Translations under genes and position numbers: made by a program | Part shown: positions 16,980 through 23,582 of the stretch, one piece after another | How the letters are laid out: each line of letters opens with the position of its first letter | How positions within the stretch are numbered: the stretch's first letter is position 1 | Source of the DNA: Cognatundibacterium curvum | Lineage (GTDB): Bacteria > Pseudomonadota > Gammaproteobacteria > Burkholderiales > Burkholderiaceae_D | NCBI RefSeq assembly: GCF_014284235.1 | Contig: NZ_JACOGD010000002.1 | Location: forward strand, 62,001 to 126,000 | Direction of reading: 5' to 3' | Length of the DNA: 64,000 bases | The notes under the pieces: model-generated | Told to the model about the DNA's origin: nothing | Databases searched by the model: none | Seen by the model: only the letters and a program-made list of their open reading frames with translations

Positions 16980-18578
16980 TCACCACCCCTGCACCTGACT
17001 AAAACTCAAATCAAACTTACTCAGATATTTACGTAAGCGGTCGGCGTCGTTCGGGGTTTTTTTGTCTTTGCGGCTGTGCTCAAATAAGCTGCGGCCGGCG
17101 TCGGACAGGCTGGCGGATTGTTGGCAGATCTGGATCACATAGGCTAATTGCACGCGGTCGAAAGGGTCGATCTGGGTTTGCAGCGCGATCCAGTCCGGGT
17201 GGCTGAGGGTTGACTGCGTCGCCAGCGCGCTTTGCTCAGATCCTTGGTTGCGCAAGCTCAGGCGTTGTACTTCGGCTTGTACCAGTGGCTGATCGATGCG
17301 GCCGGAATCGGCCAGCGTCGCCATGCGTAGCAAGCTGCCTGACAGGTCGCGGAAATTTCCTGCCCATTGTGTGCTGCCCGCCATCGCGTAATCCAGATAG
17401 ATTTTTTTCGCATCGGAATTGAAGCGCACTTTTTTACCTAGCTGGCCGGCGATGCGTTCCAGTTCAAATTCCAGATTGGGTTCTATGTCTTCGCGTCTGT
17501 CCTTCAGGCCGGGCAGGGTGTATAGCCAGGTATTGATGCGCGCGAATAAATCCTCACGAAAACGCCCATCCCTGACATCCTGACTCAGGTCTCTGTGGGT
17601 GCCGGCGATAAGCTGAAACTGGCTGGAGATTTCTTTGTCGCTGCCCATGGGGAAGAAGCGTTTTTCTTCGATCGCTTTCAGTAGCATGGCTTGCTCATCT
17701 AAGCCCAGCTCACCTATTTCATCCAGAAACAGTAAGCCGTTTTCAGCAGCTTTCAGATAACCGGCGCGAGCTTGTAAGGCGCCGGTAAATGCGCCTTTGG
17801 TATGGCCGAACAAAGCAGACATGGCGCCTTCACCGCGCAAGGTAGCGCAGTTGACGTCGATAAAGTCGCCTTGCAACTGATGTTTGGCGCGTTTTAATTC
17901 GTAAATGCGTCGCGCCAGAAAAGACTTGCCGGTTCCTGTCGGGCCGGTCAGCAGTATGGGTGAGGAAGAGCGCAGCGCGACTTGTTCGATCTCGGCGATC
18001 GTGGCATTGAAGGCGGCGTTTTGGGTCGCGATGCCGAATTTGAGAAAGGACAGGTCTTCTTCCCGTTCGGCTTCAAAGCGGCTGGCTAACTGATTGTATT
18101 GCGAGAGGTCCAGATCGACGATGGCGAATGCACTGCTGTCATCGCGCTGAGGATTGCGTGGTGGTGATGTCTGTAGCAGCTTCGCGGGGAAGTAGCGTGT
18201 TTCGGTCAGCAGGAACAGACAAATCTGCGCAACGTGGGTGCCGGTGGTGATGTGCACCAGATAGTTATTCTGTTCGGTGTTGAACTGATAGCGACGCGCA
18301 AAATCATGCAGTGCTGAATACACTTCAACGAAATCCCAGGGGTCACGCATGCGCAGCAGTACCGGTTCGACCACAGTCTCCGGTGAGATACGTTTGATAT
18401 CTGCGGTAATCAGCCTGAGTAAAGCGTCATGCGCGCCGATGTGGAACAGGACCAGCCGATGGACCAACATATCCTCTTGCTGGCACAGCGCTATCGTCGG
18501 ACGCCAGCGGCTCCAACGCTGCGCGCTGAACCCGGCATCCAGCGTAGTGCCCAGAAAGCTGAAAATCACATTATCCAT
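16980..18578 (-). CDS. rtcR: Sigma-54-dependent regulator of RNA repair, RtcR
   Basis: A 532-residue protein. Residues 1-180 form the RtcR N-terminal CARF-type ligand domain (VHITTGTHVAQICLFLLTETRYFP near 108-131), which in this family senses RNA ends such as 2',3'-cyclic phosphate fragments. The AAA+ domain has Walker A GPTGTGKS (212-219), the sigma-54 contact motif GAFTGA (262-267), Walker B LLFLDEIGEL and an arginine region FREDLFARINTW. The C-terminus is a short helical DNA-binding tail. It is divergent from the slipin-rtcB-rtcA-rlaP genes, which start behind a sigma-54 promoter at 18714. It should activate that promoter when RNA damage products bind. Confidence 0.95.
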   Translation of the reverse strand: MDNVIFSFLGTTLDAGFSAQRWSRWRPTIALCQQEDMLVHRLVLFHIGAHDALLRLITADIKRISPETVVEPVLLRMRDPWDFVEVYSALHDFARRYQFNTEQNNYLVHITTGTHVAQICLFLLTETRYFPAKLLQTSPPRNPQRDDSSAFAIVDLDLSQYNQLASRFEAEREEDLSFLKFGIATQNAAFNATIAEIEQVALRSSSPILLTGPTGTGKSFLARRIYELKRAKHQLQGDFIDVNCATLRGEGAMSALFGHTKGAFTGALQARAGYLKAAENGLLFLDEIGELGLDEQAMLLKAIEEKRFFPMGSDKEISSQFQLIAGTHRDLSQDVRDGRFREDLFARINTWLYTLPGLKDRREDIEPNLEFELERIAGQLGKKVRFNSDAKKIYLDYAMAGSTQWAGNFRDLSGSLLRMATLADSGRIDQPLVQAEVQRLSLRNQGSEQSALATQSTLSHPDWIALQTQIDPFDRVQLAYVIQICQQSASLSDAGRSLFEHSRKDKKTPNDADRLRKYLSKFDLSFSQVQGW

Positions 18579-18633
18579 TTTTATAAATACGTATCTGAAA
18601 ATATATGAATTTGATTTTCCTATAGACGTGAAA

Positions 18634-18690
18634 TTTTTGCAAAGTATTTTGTTTTTAAAAAATATCCTTATGAATCAGATATTTGCAAAT
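18634..18690. promoter_or_regulatory. Candidate RtcR upstream activator sites
   Basis: TTTTTGCAAA (18634-18643) and the palindrome ATTTGCAAAT (18681-18690) share TTTGCAAA and lie about 25-80 bp upstream of the sigma-54 promoter, in a very AT-rich stretch. Enhancer proteins bind paired palindromes in such positions. Assignment to RtcR is inferred. Confidence 0.35.
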
Positions 18691-18713
18691 TTTTTTAGAA
18701 AACTGTGCCGAGC

Positions 18714-18729
18714 TGGCACGCTTATCGCA
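18714..18729 (+). promoter_or_regulatory. Sigma-54 (-24/-12) promoter of the rtc operon
   Basis: TGGCACG-CTTA-TCGCA matches TGGCACG-N4-TTGCA at all but one position, with GG and GC exactly 12 bp apart. The expected start of transcription is near 18740, so the tRNA-like sequences and the slipin gene would be on one transcript. Confidence 0.85.
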
Positions 18730-18867
18730 ATACAGTCAGGGTCTTCAACGACATGGATTGCAACAGGTAAGGGTTCCAAAGCCCTTCCGGTGCTTCCGCC
18801 TCCACCACGGTTTTCCGTCAGGTGTATCGGCAGGAAGTATGCCGCAGCTATGTCATGAAAACAGTTT

Positions 18868-18911
18868 GCGATGTTCTGGTGAATTTATCCGGGTTCGATT
18901 CCCGACATCGC
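18868..18911 (+). ncRNA. Minimal tRNA-like element (acceptor stem plus T-arm)
   Basis: GCGATGT (18868-18874) pairs perfectly with ACATCGC (18905-18911). Between them lie about 15 unstructured bases and a T-arm CGGG-TTCGATT-CCCG with a canonical T-loop. D-arm and anticodon arm are missing. It sits in the leader of the rtc operon, three bases before a second, larger tRNA-like sequence. It resembles the tRNA-mimic modules known from bacterial Y RNAs such as YrlA, which are encoded near rtcBA in Salmonella. It cannot be a decoding tRNA. Confidence 0.65.
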
Positions 18912-18914
18912 TGG

Positions 18915-18987
18915 AAATGGACTGCTCATTTGGTAGAGCCACTGACAAATACTCAGTTCTTAGTGGGTTCGATTCCCACTCCACTTA
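18915..18987 (+). ncRNA. tRNA-like cloverleaf in the rtc leader
   Basis: The elements in order are: acceptor AAATGGA with TCCACTT (one A-C mismatch); D-arm GCTC-ATTTGGTA-GAGC, one base off the common bacterial GCTCAGTTGGTAGAGC; anticodon arm ACTGA-CAAATAC-TCAGT; variable TCTTA; T-arm GTGGG-TTCGATT-CCCAC; then discriminator A followed by CCT. The anticodon loop has A instead of the universal U33, and the 3' end lacks CCA. I take it as a tRNA mimic or an obligate pseudo-tRNA, not a translating tRNA. Its position between a sigma-54 promoter and rtcBA suggests a function in RNA repair, as a decoy, guide or regulator. Confidence 0.75.
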
Positions 18988-19257
18988 CCTTAACCGGGTA
19001 TGCATGTAACACAAGTAGTAAAGGGTGGGAGGCGCGTAAACTGAACAGGTAAAACGCTTCCTCATTGTAGTTGACCGGAATTTGTCATCACCGATCTGAC
19101 CAGGGATGTTTCAGTCTTGTTTGTGTGCCGCAATGAAAGCAAGCGTCAACAATCAGGCACGATACCTTCCTGCTCGATTTAGCTGAGACACATTGTCGTC
19201 CTCTGCAAACCACCCTTCCCCCTTGGTTCAATAACAGAAGAGAAAAAAGAGAGAATC

Positions 19258-20388
19258 ATGAAAATTAAAGTACAAAAAAATGAACGGGCCATTTTATTTA
19301 AAGATAAGGAATTCGAGGAAATTCTGGGCCCGGGTGAACATGTGCGCCGTAGTTTGTTTGCGACTTATACCTGTCAGCTTGTCGATATGGGCAAGGTAGA
19401 ATTCGACGGCCCGGTCGCCGAGTATTTACGTCAGCACGAAGCGGCAGTGACAGAAGAGAATTTTTACGTCGCCGATGTCGGTGATGAAGAAGTGGTTTTG
19501 CGTTACGAACATGCGAGTCTGGTTGAGATTTTAGCACCGGGTAGCCGTAAATTATTCTGGAAATGGGGTGCAGCGCAAAGCTTTGAGCGTGTGAGCATAC
19601 GTGAGAATTATCAGGTTCCGGAAAAATTGTTAACTTATCTGGCACAACCTGCTCTGCGCGGAAAAGCGGTGGCTGGCCTGCAGAATATCTTAGCGGCACA
19701 AGTACCGGAATCCTTTGTCGGTTTGTTGCGTGTCGATGGTAAGTTAGTGGCGCAGCTCACACCTGGTAAAACTGCTTACTGGCGTTTTAATCGCGACATA
19801 CAGCTGGAACTGGTCGATACCCGCTTGCAGGTGCTGGAAGTCTCAGGTCAGGAAATTTTGACCCGCGATAAAGTGAATTTGCGTATTAACCTGAATGCGC
19901 ACTGGCAGTACGATGATGTCAGTCTGGCTTATGCACGCCTGGCAAAACCTGCTGAGCATATCTACCGCGAATTGCAGTTTGCGCTGCGCGCGGCGGTTGG
20001 AACCCGCAGCCTGGACGAGTTGTTGGAAGATAAGCAGGTCATTGATCGTGTGGTTGATCAGTATGTGCAGGAAAAGCTGGCTGGCTTTGGCTTGCGTGTC
20101 GCTGGCATAGGTGTGAAAGATATCGTGTTACCAGGTGAGATGAAGGTATTGCTGGCACAGGTAGTTGAAGCTGAAAAAGCCGCTCAGGCCAATGTGATAC
20201 GCCGGCGCGAAGAAACTAATGCGACCCGTTCTATGTTGAATACTGCCCGTGTGATGGAAAGTAATCCGATTGCGCTGCGCTTGAAAGAATTGGAGACTTT
20301 GGAAAAAGTCGCGGAACGTATTGATAAGATATCCGTCTTTGGTGGCTTGGATCAGGTCTTAAACGGACTCATCAAGATTAAAGCCTGA
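19258..20388 (+). CDS. Slipin (SPFH/stomatin-family protein)
   Basis: A 376-residue protein with the stomatin/prohibitin (SPFH) signature in its second half: SFVGLLRVDGKLVAQLTPGKTAYW (~155-178), VDTRLQVLEVSGQEILTRDKVNLRINL, YRELQFALRAAVGTRSLDELL and GFGLRVAGIGVKDIVLPGEMKVLLAQVVEAEKAAQAN. The N-terminal half repeats a similar beta pattern. Unlike most slipins it has no N-terminal membrane hairpin, so membrane attachment is unclear. It is the first protein gene after the tRNA-like leader and is 67 bp upstream of rtcB. Slipins accompany RtcBA in a number of RNA-repair operons, but their role is not established. Confidence 0.85.
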   Translation: MKIKVQKNERAILFKDKEFEEILGPGEHVRRSLFATYTCQLVDMGKVEFDGPVAEYLRQHEAAVTEENFYVADVGDEEVVLRYEHASLVEILAPGSRKLFWKWGAAQSFERVSIRENYQVPEKLLTYLAQPALRGKAVAGLQNILAAQVPESFVGLLRVDGKLVAQLTPGKTAYWRFNRDIQLELVDTRLQVLEVSGQEILTRDKVNLRINLNAHWQYDDVSLAYARLAKPAEHIYRELQFALRAAVGTRSLDELLEDKQVIDRVVDQYVQEKLAGFGLRVAGIGVKDIVLPGEMKVLLAQVVEAEKAAQANVIRRREETNATRSMLNTARVMESNPIALRLKELETLEKVAERIDKISVFGGLDQVLNGLIKIKA

Positions 20389-20455
20389 GCGATGCGTAAA
20401 GCAGGGGACGATGCATCCCCTCCTGCAAATAAAAAGAACAGAAAGAAAAAAGAAA

Positions 20456-21685
20456 ATGACGAATAAAAATTACCAGTTACTGGAAATAGACAATGCTGCG
20501 CCGATCAAAATGTGGACCGAAGGAGTACCGGTTGAGGCCGATGCGAGAGCGCAGTTGATCAACACCGCACGTATGCCTTTCATCTATAAGCATCTGGCTG
20601 TAATGCCCGATGTACACCTCGGAAAAGGCTCGACCATAGGCAGTGTGATACCTACCCATAAAGCGATTATTCCCGCTGCCGTCGGGGTTGATATCGGTTG
20701 CGGCATGATCGCTTGCAAAACCACATTGACCGCCAAAGATTTGCCCGACAATCTGGCACCTTTGCGTGCTGCGATAGAACAGGCTGTGCCACACGGTCGT
20801 ACCTCTGTCCGTGGTAGTCGGGATAAAGGTGCCTGGGGTGACCGTCCACCTGCATTGGTGGATGAGGCCTGGAAGTCATTGCAAGGCGTGTTTAATGAAA
20901 TCACCGCTGACTACCCGCAGTTAATAAAGACCAATCAGCATAAGCATTTGGGTACGCTGGGAACCGGCAATCATTTCATAGAAATCTGTCTCGATGAACA
21001 GGATACGGTCTGGATTATGCTGCACTCGGGTTCGCGTGGTGTCGGGAATGCGATTGGTACCCTGTTCATCGAGTTAGCAAAAAAAGATATGCAGCAGCAT
21101 TTGTGCAATATCCCGGATCAGGATCTGGCGTATTTCGAAGAAGGTAGTAAATACTTCGGCGATTATGTGAAAGCCGTAGGATGGGGGCAGAAATTCGCCA
21201 AAACCAATCGCGAAATCATGATGCAGCATGTGATAGACGCGATGCGTAAAATCATTTCCAAGCCATTTCAAACCCATCTGGAAGCCGTGAATTGCCACCA
21301 CAATTATGTGCAGAAAGAGCGGCATTTTGGCGAGGATGTGTATGTCACCCGTAAAGGTGCGGTATCCGCGAAAAAGGGTGAGTTGGGCATTATCCCGGGA
21401 TCGATGGGCGCCAGAAGTTTTATCGTACGTGGTTTGGGAAATGAAGACAGCTTCAGCTCTTGCAGTCATGGTGCGGGACGAACCATGAGCCGGACCAAGG
21501 CTAAAAAGCTGTTTTCTCTTGAGGATCAGATACTTGCGACGCAGGGCGTGGAATGTCGTAAGGATGCGGATGTGATTGATGAAATCCCGATGGCCTACAA
21601 GGACATCGATGCCGTCATGCATGCGCAAAAAGATCTGGTTGAAATTGTGTATACCTTAAAGCAGGTGGTATGTGTTAAAGGCTGA
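20456..21685 (+). CDS. rtcB: RNA-splicing ligase RtcB
   Basis: RtcB joins RNA 2',3'-cyclic-phosphate or 3'-phosphate ends to 5'-OH ends using GTP and Mn2+. The 409-residue product from the ATG at 20456 has MPDVHLGKGSTIGSVIP (50-66), VGVDIGCGM with the metal-binding Cys 82, LGTLGTGNHFIEI, HSGSRGVGN, NCHHNYV and CSCSHGAGR-type SSCSHGAGRTMSR, which carries the guanylylated His of the family. An upstream in-frame ATG at 20411 would add 15 basic residues and is less likely. Its 3' end overlaps rtcA by 14 bp. Confidence 0.95.
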   Translation: MTNKNYQLLEIDNAAPIKMWTEGVPVEADARAQLINTARMPFIYKHLAVMPDVHLGKGSTIGSVIPTHKAIIPAAVGVDIGCGMIACKTTLTAKDLPDNLAPLRAAIEQAVPHGRTSVRGSRDKGAWGDRPPALVDEAWKSLQGVFNEITADYPQLIKTNQHKHLGTLGTGNHFIEICLDEQDTVWIMLHSGSRGVGNAIGTLFIELAKKDMQQHLCNIPDQDLAYFEEGSKYFGDYVKAVGWGQKFAKTNREIMMQHVIDAMRKIISKPFQTHLEAVNCHHNYVQKERHFGEDVYVTRKGAVSAKKGELGIIPGSMGARSFIVRGLGNEDSFSSCSHGAGRTMSRTKAKKLFSLEDQILATQGVECRKDADVIDEIPMAYKDIDAVMHAQKDLVEIVYTLKQVVCVKG

Positions 21686-22730
21686 AAATTCTAAGAATAA
21701 AGCGGCGTCTGTGTTAGACATAGACGCTTCACAAGGAGAAGGTGGCGGGCAGATATTACGCACCGCCCTCTCCTTGTCTATCCTGACCCAAACGCCGGTT
21801 CGGCTAACTAAGATCCGCGCGAAGCGCAGTAAGCCGGGCTTAATGCGTCAGCATTTGAGTTGTGTGCGTGCGGCTACTGAAATTTCAGCTGCCGTCGTTA
21901 CTGGCGATGAAATCGGCAGTGATAGCCTGAGCTTTGAACCAGGGCCGGTGCGTGCGGGTGAGTATGCTTACGCGATTGGCACCGCCGGTAGCTGTGCCCT
22001 GGTATTGCAAACGGTGTTGTGGCCGCTGTTGTTTGCCGATGCGGAGAGTCAGGTGACGATAGAGGGCGGCACCCATGTGGATATGGCGCCATCCTTTGAA
22101 TTTTTAAAATTCAGCTTTTTTCCTGTACTCGCGAAAATGGGTGTGGATACCGTGCTCAGTCTGGCTAAGCATGGTTTCTATCCGGGTGGCGGTGGAAAAT
22201 TACAGGCGCAAATTCGTCCGTGGCGGCAGCGTAATGCACTCGATTTACAAACGCGCGGAGAATTTGTCGGACAACAGGCACTGTGTCTGACCGCCAATCT
22301 GGATCCTGCTGTCACTGCGAAACAACTCAGCGAAGTTGAACGTCATTTGCAGTGGCCGCGCGACAGTTTACAGCATCAGGGCTTACGTAATTCACATGGC
22401 ATCGGCAATGCTTTGATGCTGAGTGTGCAGAGTCGTGCACATACCGAAGTCGTGACTGCATATGGGCATAAAACCAGATCGAGTGAATATGTGGCACAGC
22501 TCGCCTGCGATGAGATCAGGCGTTATCTGGCGGGCGATGCTGTCGTTGGTGAGCATTTGGCGGATCAGTTATTGCTGCCGCTGGCTTTGGTGGGCGGCAC
22601 ATTCACCACTAATCTCATCAGCGAACACTTTACAACTAACGCCGCATTGATAGAAAAATTTTTGCCCGTGAAGTTCTGTGTTGAACAAAGGGGAGCGAAC
22701 TGTTTTGCAGTAAGCTGCGCTTCACCTTAA
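21672..22730 (+). CDS. rtcA: RNA 3'-terminal phosphate cyclase
   Basis: RtcA turns RNA 3'-phosphates into 2',3'-cyclic phosphates via an adenylylated His, making substrates for RtcB. The 352-residue product starts with the family block DASQGEGGGQILRTALSLS and has RAKRSKPGLMRQH, GTAGSCALVLQTVLWPLLFA, GGTHVDMAPSFEFLK, KHGFYPGGGGK and VGEHLADQLLLPLAL with the active-site His. It overlaps rtcB and is followed 51 bp later by rlaP. Length is normal (E. coli ~340). Confidence 0.96.
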   Translation: MLKAENSKNKAASVLDIDASQGEGGGQILRTALSLSILTQTPVRLTKIRAKRSKPGLMRQHLSCVRAATEISAAVVTGDEIGSDSLSFEPGPVRAGEYAYAIGTAGSCALVLQTVLWPLLFADAESQVTIEGGTHVDMAPSFEFLKFSFFPVLAKMGVDTVLSLAKHGFYPGGGGKLQAQIRPWRQRNALDLQTRGEFVGQQALCLTANLDPAVTAKQLSEVERHLQWPRDSLQHQGLRNSHGIGNALMLSVQSRAHTEVVTAYGHKTRSSEYVAQLACDEIRRYLAGDAVVGEHLADQLLLPLALVGGTFTTNLISEHFTTNAALIEKFLPVKFCVEQRGANCFAVSCASP

Positions 22731-22781: not shown

Positions 22782-23582
22782 ATGGATATGAACAGGATAC
22801 CTGAGACCGTGCGCGAAGAGATAGTGCGCCGTATCCGCCGGGCAGAAGATGAACACGGTGTGCGCGTATTGCTTGCGGTTGAATCGGGGAGCCGCGCCTG
22901 GGGCTTCGAGTCGCCCAACAGCGACTTCGATGCGCGCTTTATCTACGCCAATCCGCGTGACTGGTATTTGTCAGTGGGCCTGGAAGAACAACGCGATGTG
23001 ATCGAATATCCTATCGTTGATGAGATCGACCTGAACGGCTGGGATGTACGCAAAGCCTTGCGGTTGTTTCGGAAATCGAATCCCGCATTCGTCGAATGGA
23101 TACAGTCGCCTGTCATCTACGCAGAAAATACGTGCTTTGCGCAAGACGTGCGTCAGCTGCTGCCGGAAATCTATTCGTGCCAGAATGGGATCTACCATTA
23201 CAGAAGCATGGCGAAAACCAATTACCGGACATATCTGAAAGCGGATCTGGTGCCGCTTAAAAAATATTTCTACGTTCTACGCCCTTTGCTGACCGTGCGC
23301 TGGCTGCAGCGTTACGGCAGCGCAGCACCGATAGAGTTTAGCAAATTGCTGCATTTGATCGAAGATGAACCAGGCTTAGTCGCCGACATTCATGCGCTGC
23401 TCGAACAAAAACGTGCAGCGCCGGAATTAGGTCTGTCATCACCGGTGCTAAGCATTAACGCATTTGTTGAACGCGAGTTAGAGCGGCTGGAAGCAATCGT
23501 GCCCACTACAGCACAACGCGAACATATCACCACCAAATTGAATGCCGTTTTTCATCGCAGCTTGCAGCAGGCCTGGGCTTGA
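22782..23582 (+). CDS. rlaP: RlaP-type nucleotidyltransferase of RNA repair operons
   Basis: A 266-residue member of the RlaP (YcgL-like) branch of the DNA-polymerase-beta nucleotidyltransferases. The key block ESGSRAWGFESPNSDFDARFIY (32-53) contains the GS and DxD metal/nucleotide motifs. VDEIDLNGWDVRKALRLFRKSNPAFVEWIQSPVIY and the YFYVLRPLLTVRWLQR helix follow. The Pfam name, RNA repair pathway DNA polymerase beta family, comes from its linkage to RtcB. It presumably adds nucleotides to damaged RNA ends, but the activity is inferred. It is the last gene of the rtc operon here. The following 286 bp contain no gene. Confidence 0.88.
   Translation: MDMNRIPETVREEIVRRIRRAEDEHGVRVLLAVESGSRAWGFESPNSDFDARFIYANPRDWYLSVGLEEQRDVIEYPIVDEIDLNGWDVRKALRLFRKSNPAFVEWIQSPVIYAENTCFAQDVRQLLPEIYSCQNGIYHYRSMAKTNYRTYLKADLVPLKKYFYVLRPLLTVRWLQRYGSAAPIEFSKLLHLIEDEPGLVADIHALLEQKRAAPELGLSSPVLSINAFVERELERLEAIVPTTAQREHITTKLNAVFHRSLQQAWA

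Follow-up and report, generated by a model that had tools for sequence, protein, structure and literature searches.

Why would an rtc RNA-repair operon that has no Ro60 gene carry two tRNA-like sequences in tandem in its leader? The locus lies in the window, the whole 64,000-nucleotide stretch of Cognatundibacterium curvum DNA that was analyzed. On the minus strand, rtcR (16980–18578) encodes a CARF and sigma-54 activator protein (Pfam RtcR, 254 bits; Sigma54_activat, 169 bits) and is divergent from a plus-strand operon. This operon comprises slipin, an SPFH/Band 7 gene (19258–20388; Band_7, 92.5 bits), the RNA ligase gene rtcB (20459–21685; RtcB, 436 bits), the RNA 3'-phosphate cyclase gene rtcA (21672–22730; RTC, 260 bits), and a gene for an RlaP-family nucleotidyltransferase (22782–23582; RlaP, 276 bits). 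A −24/−12 sigma-54 promoter-like site, TGGCACG-N4-TCGCA with the spacer CTTA, can be read at 18714–18729 on the plus strand. An earlier note on this DNA had placed a tRNA-like tandem between the sigma-54 site and slipin-rtcB-rtcA-rlaP, and both the position and the Pfam identities agree with that reading.

The same note had described these sequences as tRNA mimics operating without Ro60. This view holds: a TROVE/Ro60 profile found no match anywhere in the source genome (98.67% complete), the pairing is compensated in relatives, and the RNA occurs in linkage with slipin. The answer we prefer, and to which we give somewhat better than an even chance, is that the tandem belongs to a conserved tRNA-mimic noncoding RNA that is the RNA partner of slipin in Rtc RNA-repair operons, slipin being its presumed protein partner.

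Architecture of the RNA and evidence for its fold

Module 1 (18868–18914, or 18868–18911 without its 3' tail; plus strand), delimited by sequence and pair counts, has the form of a mini-tRNA. It consists of a 7-bp acceptor (GCGATGT/ACATCGC), a T-arm at 18889–18905 with the loop TTCGATT, and between them a GG loop with the D-loop-like motif CUGGU. Module 2 (18915–18989, plus strand) is a tRNA-like cloverleaf, recognized by ARAGORN, the Rfam tRNA model, our covariance model R1, and pair counts. Its acceptor pairs 18915–18921 with 18980–18986 and its D-stem 18924–18927 with 18936–18939, and the anticodon arm and T-arm occupy 18941–18957 and 18963–18979. As had been noted before, it carries A instead of U33 and lacks CCA, the 3' end being ACC followed by TT. 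ARAGORN called module 2 as tRNA-Ile(aat), the sole tRNA that it found in the window. In a narrowed search, the module reached 36.3 bits with the Rfam tRNA model (gathering score 29); a fast-filter Rfam scan of the whole window and an E-value scan of 17500–20500 both missed it. A minus-strand match to Plastid-ycf2 in the window was put down to likeness to an antisense tRNA.

Single-sequence folding gave weak z-scores (−1.48 and −1.42). Folded alone, module 2 adopted a non-cloverleaf structure, and folded together with module 1 it showed the cloverleaf arms in the minimum free energy structure. The case for the structure therefore rests on comparison rather than on energy. The same leader is present in five further genomes of the genus (G011, G023, G016, G008, and G044), in which RtcR is found in 18 of 43 genomes. 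In a MAFFT alignment of the six sequences, window included (A4), 10 of 33 pairs changed on both sides, a number reached by 0 of 500 shuffles, and 91.9% of pair cells were standard. The anticodon stem, for example, differs by species (ACUGA/UCAGU, AUCGA/UCGAU, and ACAGA/UCUGU). One T-stem pair of module 1, C-A in the window, reads C-G in G011, the nearest relative, and U-A in the remaining four genomes.

R1 was built from these six sequences, and the window, being one of its sources, matches it with 131.4 bits at 18866–18989. Among 81 chosen homologues, 25 of the 33 pairs were compensated, and the covariation score was 0.494, compared with at most 0.092 for slid versions of the alignment. This alignment was fitted to R1 and is biased in its favor, which gives weight to the shuffle test on the six MAFFT-aligned sequences. 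The compensatory changes in relatives that the earlier note had set as a check are thus present in both sets, and by this comparison the tRNA-like structure is real. Plain decay of tRNA genes is ruled out by the compensation, in the six sequences as in the 81 homologues.

The RNA is wider than 18868–18987, the extent first proposed; both modules stand, and further elements flank them on the same strand. Upstream, a 5' domain at about 18760–18846 forms two hairpins with a conserved AUGCCGC at its end. RNAalifold predicted it from 34 chosen loci, including four Pseudomonas loci without T-arms, and of the 18 pairs that it predicted, 14 are compensated in one sequence or more. Immediately 3' of module 2, a hairpin at 18985–19000 recurs with at least 4 bp in 72 of the 81 homologues, where shuffling would lead one to expect 37.8. 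Further downstream, the region 19020–19220 contains, by eye, a GUAGUA motif and a possible long-range helix between AGGGUGG (19022–19028) and CCACCCUU (19210–19217) ahead of slipin. This helix seems to covary in relatives, again by eye; aligning the 3' region across loci gained little.

Two side observations concern related loci. L033 (6058–7524) and L034 (5398–6882) have frames of 488 and 494 amino acids between rtcB and rtcA, which the window operon does not have. In L050, from G044, a short inverted repeat, TTCCCGCGGAAGCGGGAA, lies at about 2150–2200 between rtcR and the promoter and looks like an interspersed repeat.

Conserved and variable parts of the two modules

The D-stem of module 2, GCUC/GAGC, occurs in 81 of 81 homologues, which were chosen by a model containing this stem. 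Outside the 81, it is kept in L100, L207, and L210 and departs in L172 and L184, two weaker matches; it is also found in 23 of 50 tRNA genes of neighboring arrays. The T-loop UUCRANU is likewise present in all 81. The anticodon loop, as aligned, has 7 nt in 50 of the 81 and otherwise 2, 4, 5, 6, or 17 nt. The 7-nt loops carry U33 in 36 of 50 cases and show 20 different triplets. A fixed D-stem combined with a variable anticodon loop argues against decoding and against a sentinel cut at the anticodon, and for a mimic that docks through the tRNA elbow. Module 2 does not look like a translating tRNA: the D and T loops of its cloverleaf are standard, but the window has A33 and the homologues lack a constant 7-nt loop, a constant U33, or a conserved anticodon.

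The same loop data bear on another possible role, that of a decoy or sentinel against toxins that cut tRNA: a nuclease would bind or cut the mimic, so that tRNA is spared or an RtcR ligand is made. In Salmonella, the RtcR operon responds to broken tRNA, and the authors of that study suggest that YrlA is a competitive inhibitor of the anticodon nuclease (PMC7790460). Against such a role stand the anticodon loops just described, together with the presence of the RNA in genomes without an RtcR match. In addition, Hughes et al. report that YrlA fragments went undetected in Salmonella under tRNA-cutting conditions (PMC7790460). We consider a decoy or sentinel unlikely, and a variant that is bound through the elbow and left uncut may be envisaged. 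The specific form suggested before, an RtcR-sensed sentinel cut in its anticodon by a tRNA nuclease, fares poorly, since 31 of the 81 homologues have no 7-nt loop and no cleavage of YrlA was seen in Salmonella (PMC7790460). The loop may nevertheless have been deleted in some lineages and serve a sentinel role in others, the window included.

Module 1 is more variable in form, ranging from a mini-tRNA up to a full cloverleaf (several Pseudomonas, L132, and L204). Its tail reads NCC in 49 of 81 homologues and NCCA in 31 of 81. In a shifted control, NCCA was found 4 times at one base further on and 0 times at two bases further on. In many relatives, NCC or NCCA ends module 1 exactly where the module 2 acceptor begins, as in tandem tRNA genes. 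The window tail is UGG, without the CC(A) of relatives.

These tails would suit a substrate of the operon enzymes, with the CC(A)-like end of module 1 acted on by RlaP, RtcA, or RtcB. According to PMC7824862, RlaP is predicted to put back lost nucleotides, and NCC is the tail in the majority of homologues counted above. The tails vary, however, and that of the window has no CC(A); at some loci, such as L147 and L208, there is also no rlaP match within 7.1 kb, although the gene could lie beyond. Overall, a substrate role appears highly unlikely.

The modules can also be reduced or lost. Among the best 80 slipin loci, a single GGUUCRA T-arm motif was found within 640 nt in seven (L168, L211, L212, L213, L214, L215, and L217). 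Four further loci, all Pseudomonas slipin operons (L148, L149, L196, and L201), had no such motif within 640 nt and kept the 5' domain. This lack of universality counts against the reading of the RNA as a slipin partner, as do the missing CC(A) and the one mismatched T-stem pair in module 1 of the window.

Association with slipin and the form without RtcR

We searched an order sample of 399 genomes with R1, scoring about 8 candidates per genome. R1 reached at least 74.9 bits at 16 loci, 15 of them beside a slipin. The remaining match (G202, 80.1 bits) consists by sequence of tandem tRNA genes, and its locus has no slipin match; ordinary tandem tRNAs reach about 70 bits with R1. Similarly, second R1 matches in L103 (67.4 and 62.9 bits) overlap tRNA-Lys genes and were set aside.

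RtcR, recognized by its CARF domain, was found in 40 of the 399 genomes, at 41 loci. These loci were classed by tblastn with at least 1.5 kb upstream of rtcR, except for G038 and G000, which were classed by other searches. Sixteen had a slipin and 25 had none in the stretch examined; in four of the 25 (G319, G289, G387, and G302) no operon gene was recognized, and a slipin could lie further off. An R1 match precedes slipin in all 16 slipin-type RtcR operons (28.0 to 131.4 bits), with only module 2 matched in G389 and G038. The RNA was found in 0 of the 25 RtcR loci without slipin in the stretch examined, where the best R1 match was 18.6 bits. In G070 and G038, rtcB comes first and slipin second, and the RNA lies between them; in G290, G304, G199, and G381, the RNA and slipin are present and RtcR has no match. 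Taken together, these loci show the RNA following slipin and neither the promoter nor RtcR or RtcB, and its presence does not depend on RtcR.

Consistent results came from a scan of named genomes, covering the best 80 of 547 slipin loci, from Undibacterium, Burkholderia, Pseudomonas, Roseateles, enterics, and others. R1 gave at least 35 bits just upstream of slipin in 69 of these 80. The RNA is thus not peculiar to the window operon and precedes slipin in many Proteobacteria. L235, the sole slipin locus in a virus collection, showed no RNA match in the 177 nt of upstream sequence that it offers.

The distance from RNA to slipin has a median of 274 nt and a 10–90% range of 245–303 nt (63 loci). 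Such constant spacing counts against the partner reading to the extent that it also fits a cis element, namely a 5' leader of slipin whose folding, or cutting of the RNase P/RNase Z type, sets the stability or translation of the slipin message. The RNA keeps its place just upstream of slipin even at loci with slipin second, and the possible long helix lies near the slipin start, as such a leader would have it. A cutting site would nevertheless need neither two mimics ending in CC(A)-like tails nor a conserved D-stem, and Ro60-type operons use separate tRNA-mimic RNAs (PMC7790460). We regard a cis-acting leader as a real but minor possibility.

The loci with and without RtcR differ in what lies ahead of the RNA. 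The 80 named loci comprise 60 with RtcR, 14 without RtcR in the upstream stretch examined and with at least 1.5 kb upstream, and six whose upstream sequence is shorter; these six, one of them with a single such tRNA gene, were left out of the comparison. A sigma-54-like motif precedes the RNA in 53 of the 60 loci with RtcR versus 1 of the 14 without. Co-directional tRNA genes, 1 to 12 per locus, precede the mimic RNA in 11 of the 14 (L171, L182, L183, L186, L188, L189, L190, L192, L193, L194, and L204) and, in the upstream stretch examined, 0 of the 60; L132–L135 also have arrays. The recurring array tRNAs are Glu-UUC, His, Asp, Arg-ACG, and Pro, and a CCA end is present in 43 of 50. When one array tRNA-His was used to look for a second copy, only the gene itself came back.

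The arrays ahead of the RNA in RtcR-less slipin loci could suggest that the modules are themselves decayed or spare tRNA genes with no function of their own, and module 2 still scores as a tRNA (60.8 bits, with a UGU anticodon, in G044). The strong compensation in variable helices and the linkage to slipin speak against this, and we find it barely credible.

A related arrangement is known from Anabaena, where loss of the repressor TrcR raises a 26-tRNA operon, rtcB, and the slipin gene alr0740 (PMC10272220). This joint rise of tRNAs, rtcB, and slipin recalls the arrays before slipin-rtcB here and makes a shared stress regulon of the three plausible. In Anabaena, unlike here, the genes are dispersed and under the control of TrcR, and the main text of PMC10272220 does not use the term "tRNA-like".

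Relation to known RNAs and proposed role

SPFH/Band-7 modules are reportedly accompanied by a novel tRNA-like molecule, a counterpart of Ro with its Y RNAs (Burroughs and Aravind 2016, NAR 44:8525). Their SPFH/Band-7 repair systems reportedly adjoin ligases and a novel nucleotidyltransferase. The present RNA probably belongs to this kind by its setting: a tRNA-like RNA lies directly beside slipin in an RtcB operon, both in the window and in all 16 slipin-type RtcR loci of the order sample. Several features come from the present analysis, namely the 5' domain, the arrangement in two modules together with its losses, the unconstrained anticodon loop, and the tRNA-array form. In the titles, abstracts, and passages that we covered of the literature on rtc and RNA repair operons, Y RNA, SPFH-RtcB, and tRNA arrays, no description of this RNA was found. 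A 2026 paper mentions an SPFH gene in the rtc locus of P. aeruginosa, and its main text contains no word starting with "tRNA" (PMC13086221).

The nearest known counterpart is YrlA with Ro60/Rsr (rsr-yrlBA-rtcBA). Both RNAs sit in an Rtc operon, and they share the D-arm UAGCUCA..GGUAGAGC and the T-arm GCGGGUUCGA of the Rfam consensus. YrlA, however, is permuted, with the T-arm before the D-arm, whereas the RNA described here keeps tRNA order and has two tandem modules. It also lacks the nearby Ro60 (TROVE) gene expected of a Y RNA, the genome having no match. The Rfam YrlA model found nothing in the window at gathering score and nothing in 18700–19260 at E up to 5. A Pseudomonas locus (L163) gave 33.6 bits against the gathering score of 69, which proves nothing, since this model scores tandem tRNA-Lys genes at 41.6 and 40.7 bits. 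In operons of the same genus that have Ro60 instead of slipin, YrlA-like matches lie in the gap from rsr to rtcB. They score 59.0 bits in G001 and 58.3 bits in G009, short of the gathering score, and are not tRNA genes by ARAGORN.

In the rtcR-rsr gap of four Undibacterium Ro60 operons (L037, L053, L057, and L059), we observed another RNA-like stretch, ending in a T-arm plus CGUGUCCACCA. By eye, its acceptor partner, GGGCAUG, lies about 210 nt upstream, which would close a tmRNA-like domain. The tRNA-like domain of tmRNA, with acceptor and T-arm and no D-stem, resembles module 1 of the window. A tmRNA, which has this domain together with a tag reading frame, was rejected for the window: ARAGORN called none there, and Rfam tmRNA models match only 15–17 bases of the T-arm.

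In the mechanism that we propose for a slipin-partner RNA, broken tRNAs would turn the operon on through RtcR and sigma-54. RNase P and 3' processing would release the modules, a step suggested by the many relatives in which an NCC or NCCA end abuts the module 2 acceptor. The RNA would then work in trans, held on a slipin scaffold, with the 5' domain as the possible slipin-binding part. The role ascribed to YrlA on Ro60 is the tethering of an effector. By analogy, the tRNA elbow could be a docking surface for a tRNA-recognizing factor (RtcB, RtcA, RlaP, or a tRNA-modifying or tRNA-processing enzyme), which would bring repair enzymes to broken tRNAs, and slipin and the RNA may together form an RNP comparable to that of Ro60 and YrlA.

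A transcript possibly of this kind has been recorded in P. aeruginosa, where "tRNA gene PA4581.1" ranks among the transcripts that rose most from an earlier to a later isolate (PMC8743555). Its locus number suggests a position between rtcR and slipin, and ARAGORN finds a tRNA-Arg-like module between these genes in P. aeruginosa PA7 (L153).

More tentatively, and with less than even confidence, we propose a class of Ro60-independent repair RNPs made of slipin and a modular RNA. The 5' domain would be the fixed partner, and the tRNA mimics would be interchangeable effectors, present as two cloverleaves, as a mini-tRNA with a cloverleaf, as a mini-tRNA alone, or not at all. The class would have two control forms, one driven by RtcR and sigma-54 and one lacking RtcR, where a row of spare tRNA genes would precede the RNA, slipin, and rtcB.

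The anatomy described here, with a 5' domain that persists at some loci without tRNA parts, a conserved elbow, and an unconstrained anticodon loop, makes the association of slipins with tRNA-mimic RNAs in RNA-repair operons directly testable by binding. Within one genus, operons have either Ro60-YrlA or slipin-RNA, which appear as alternative scaffold pairs. If the proposed class is true, its RtcR-less form could replace broken tRNAs while mending them.
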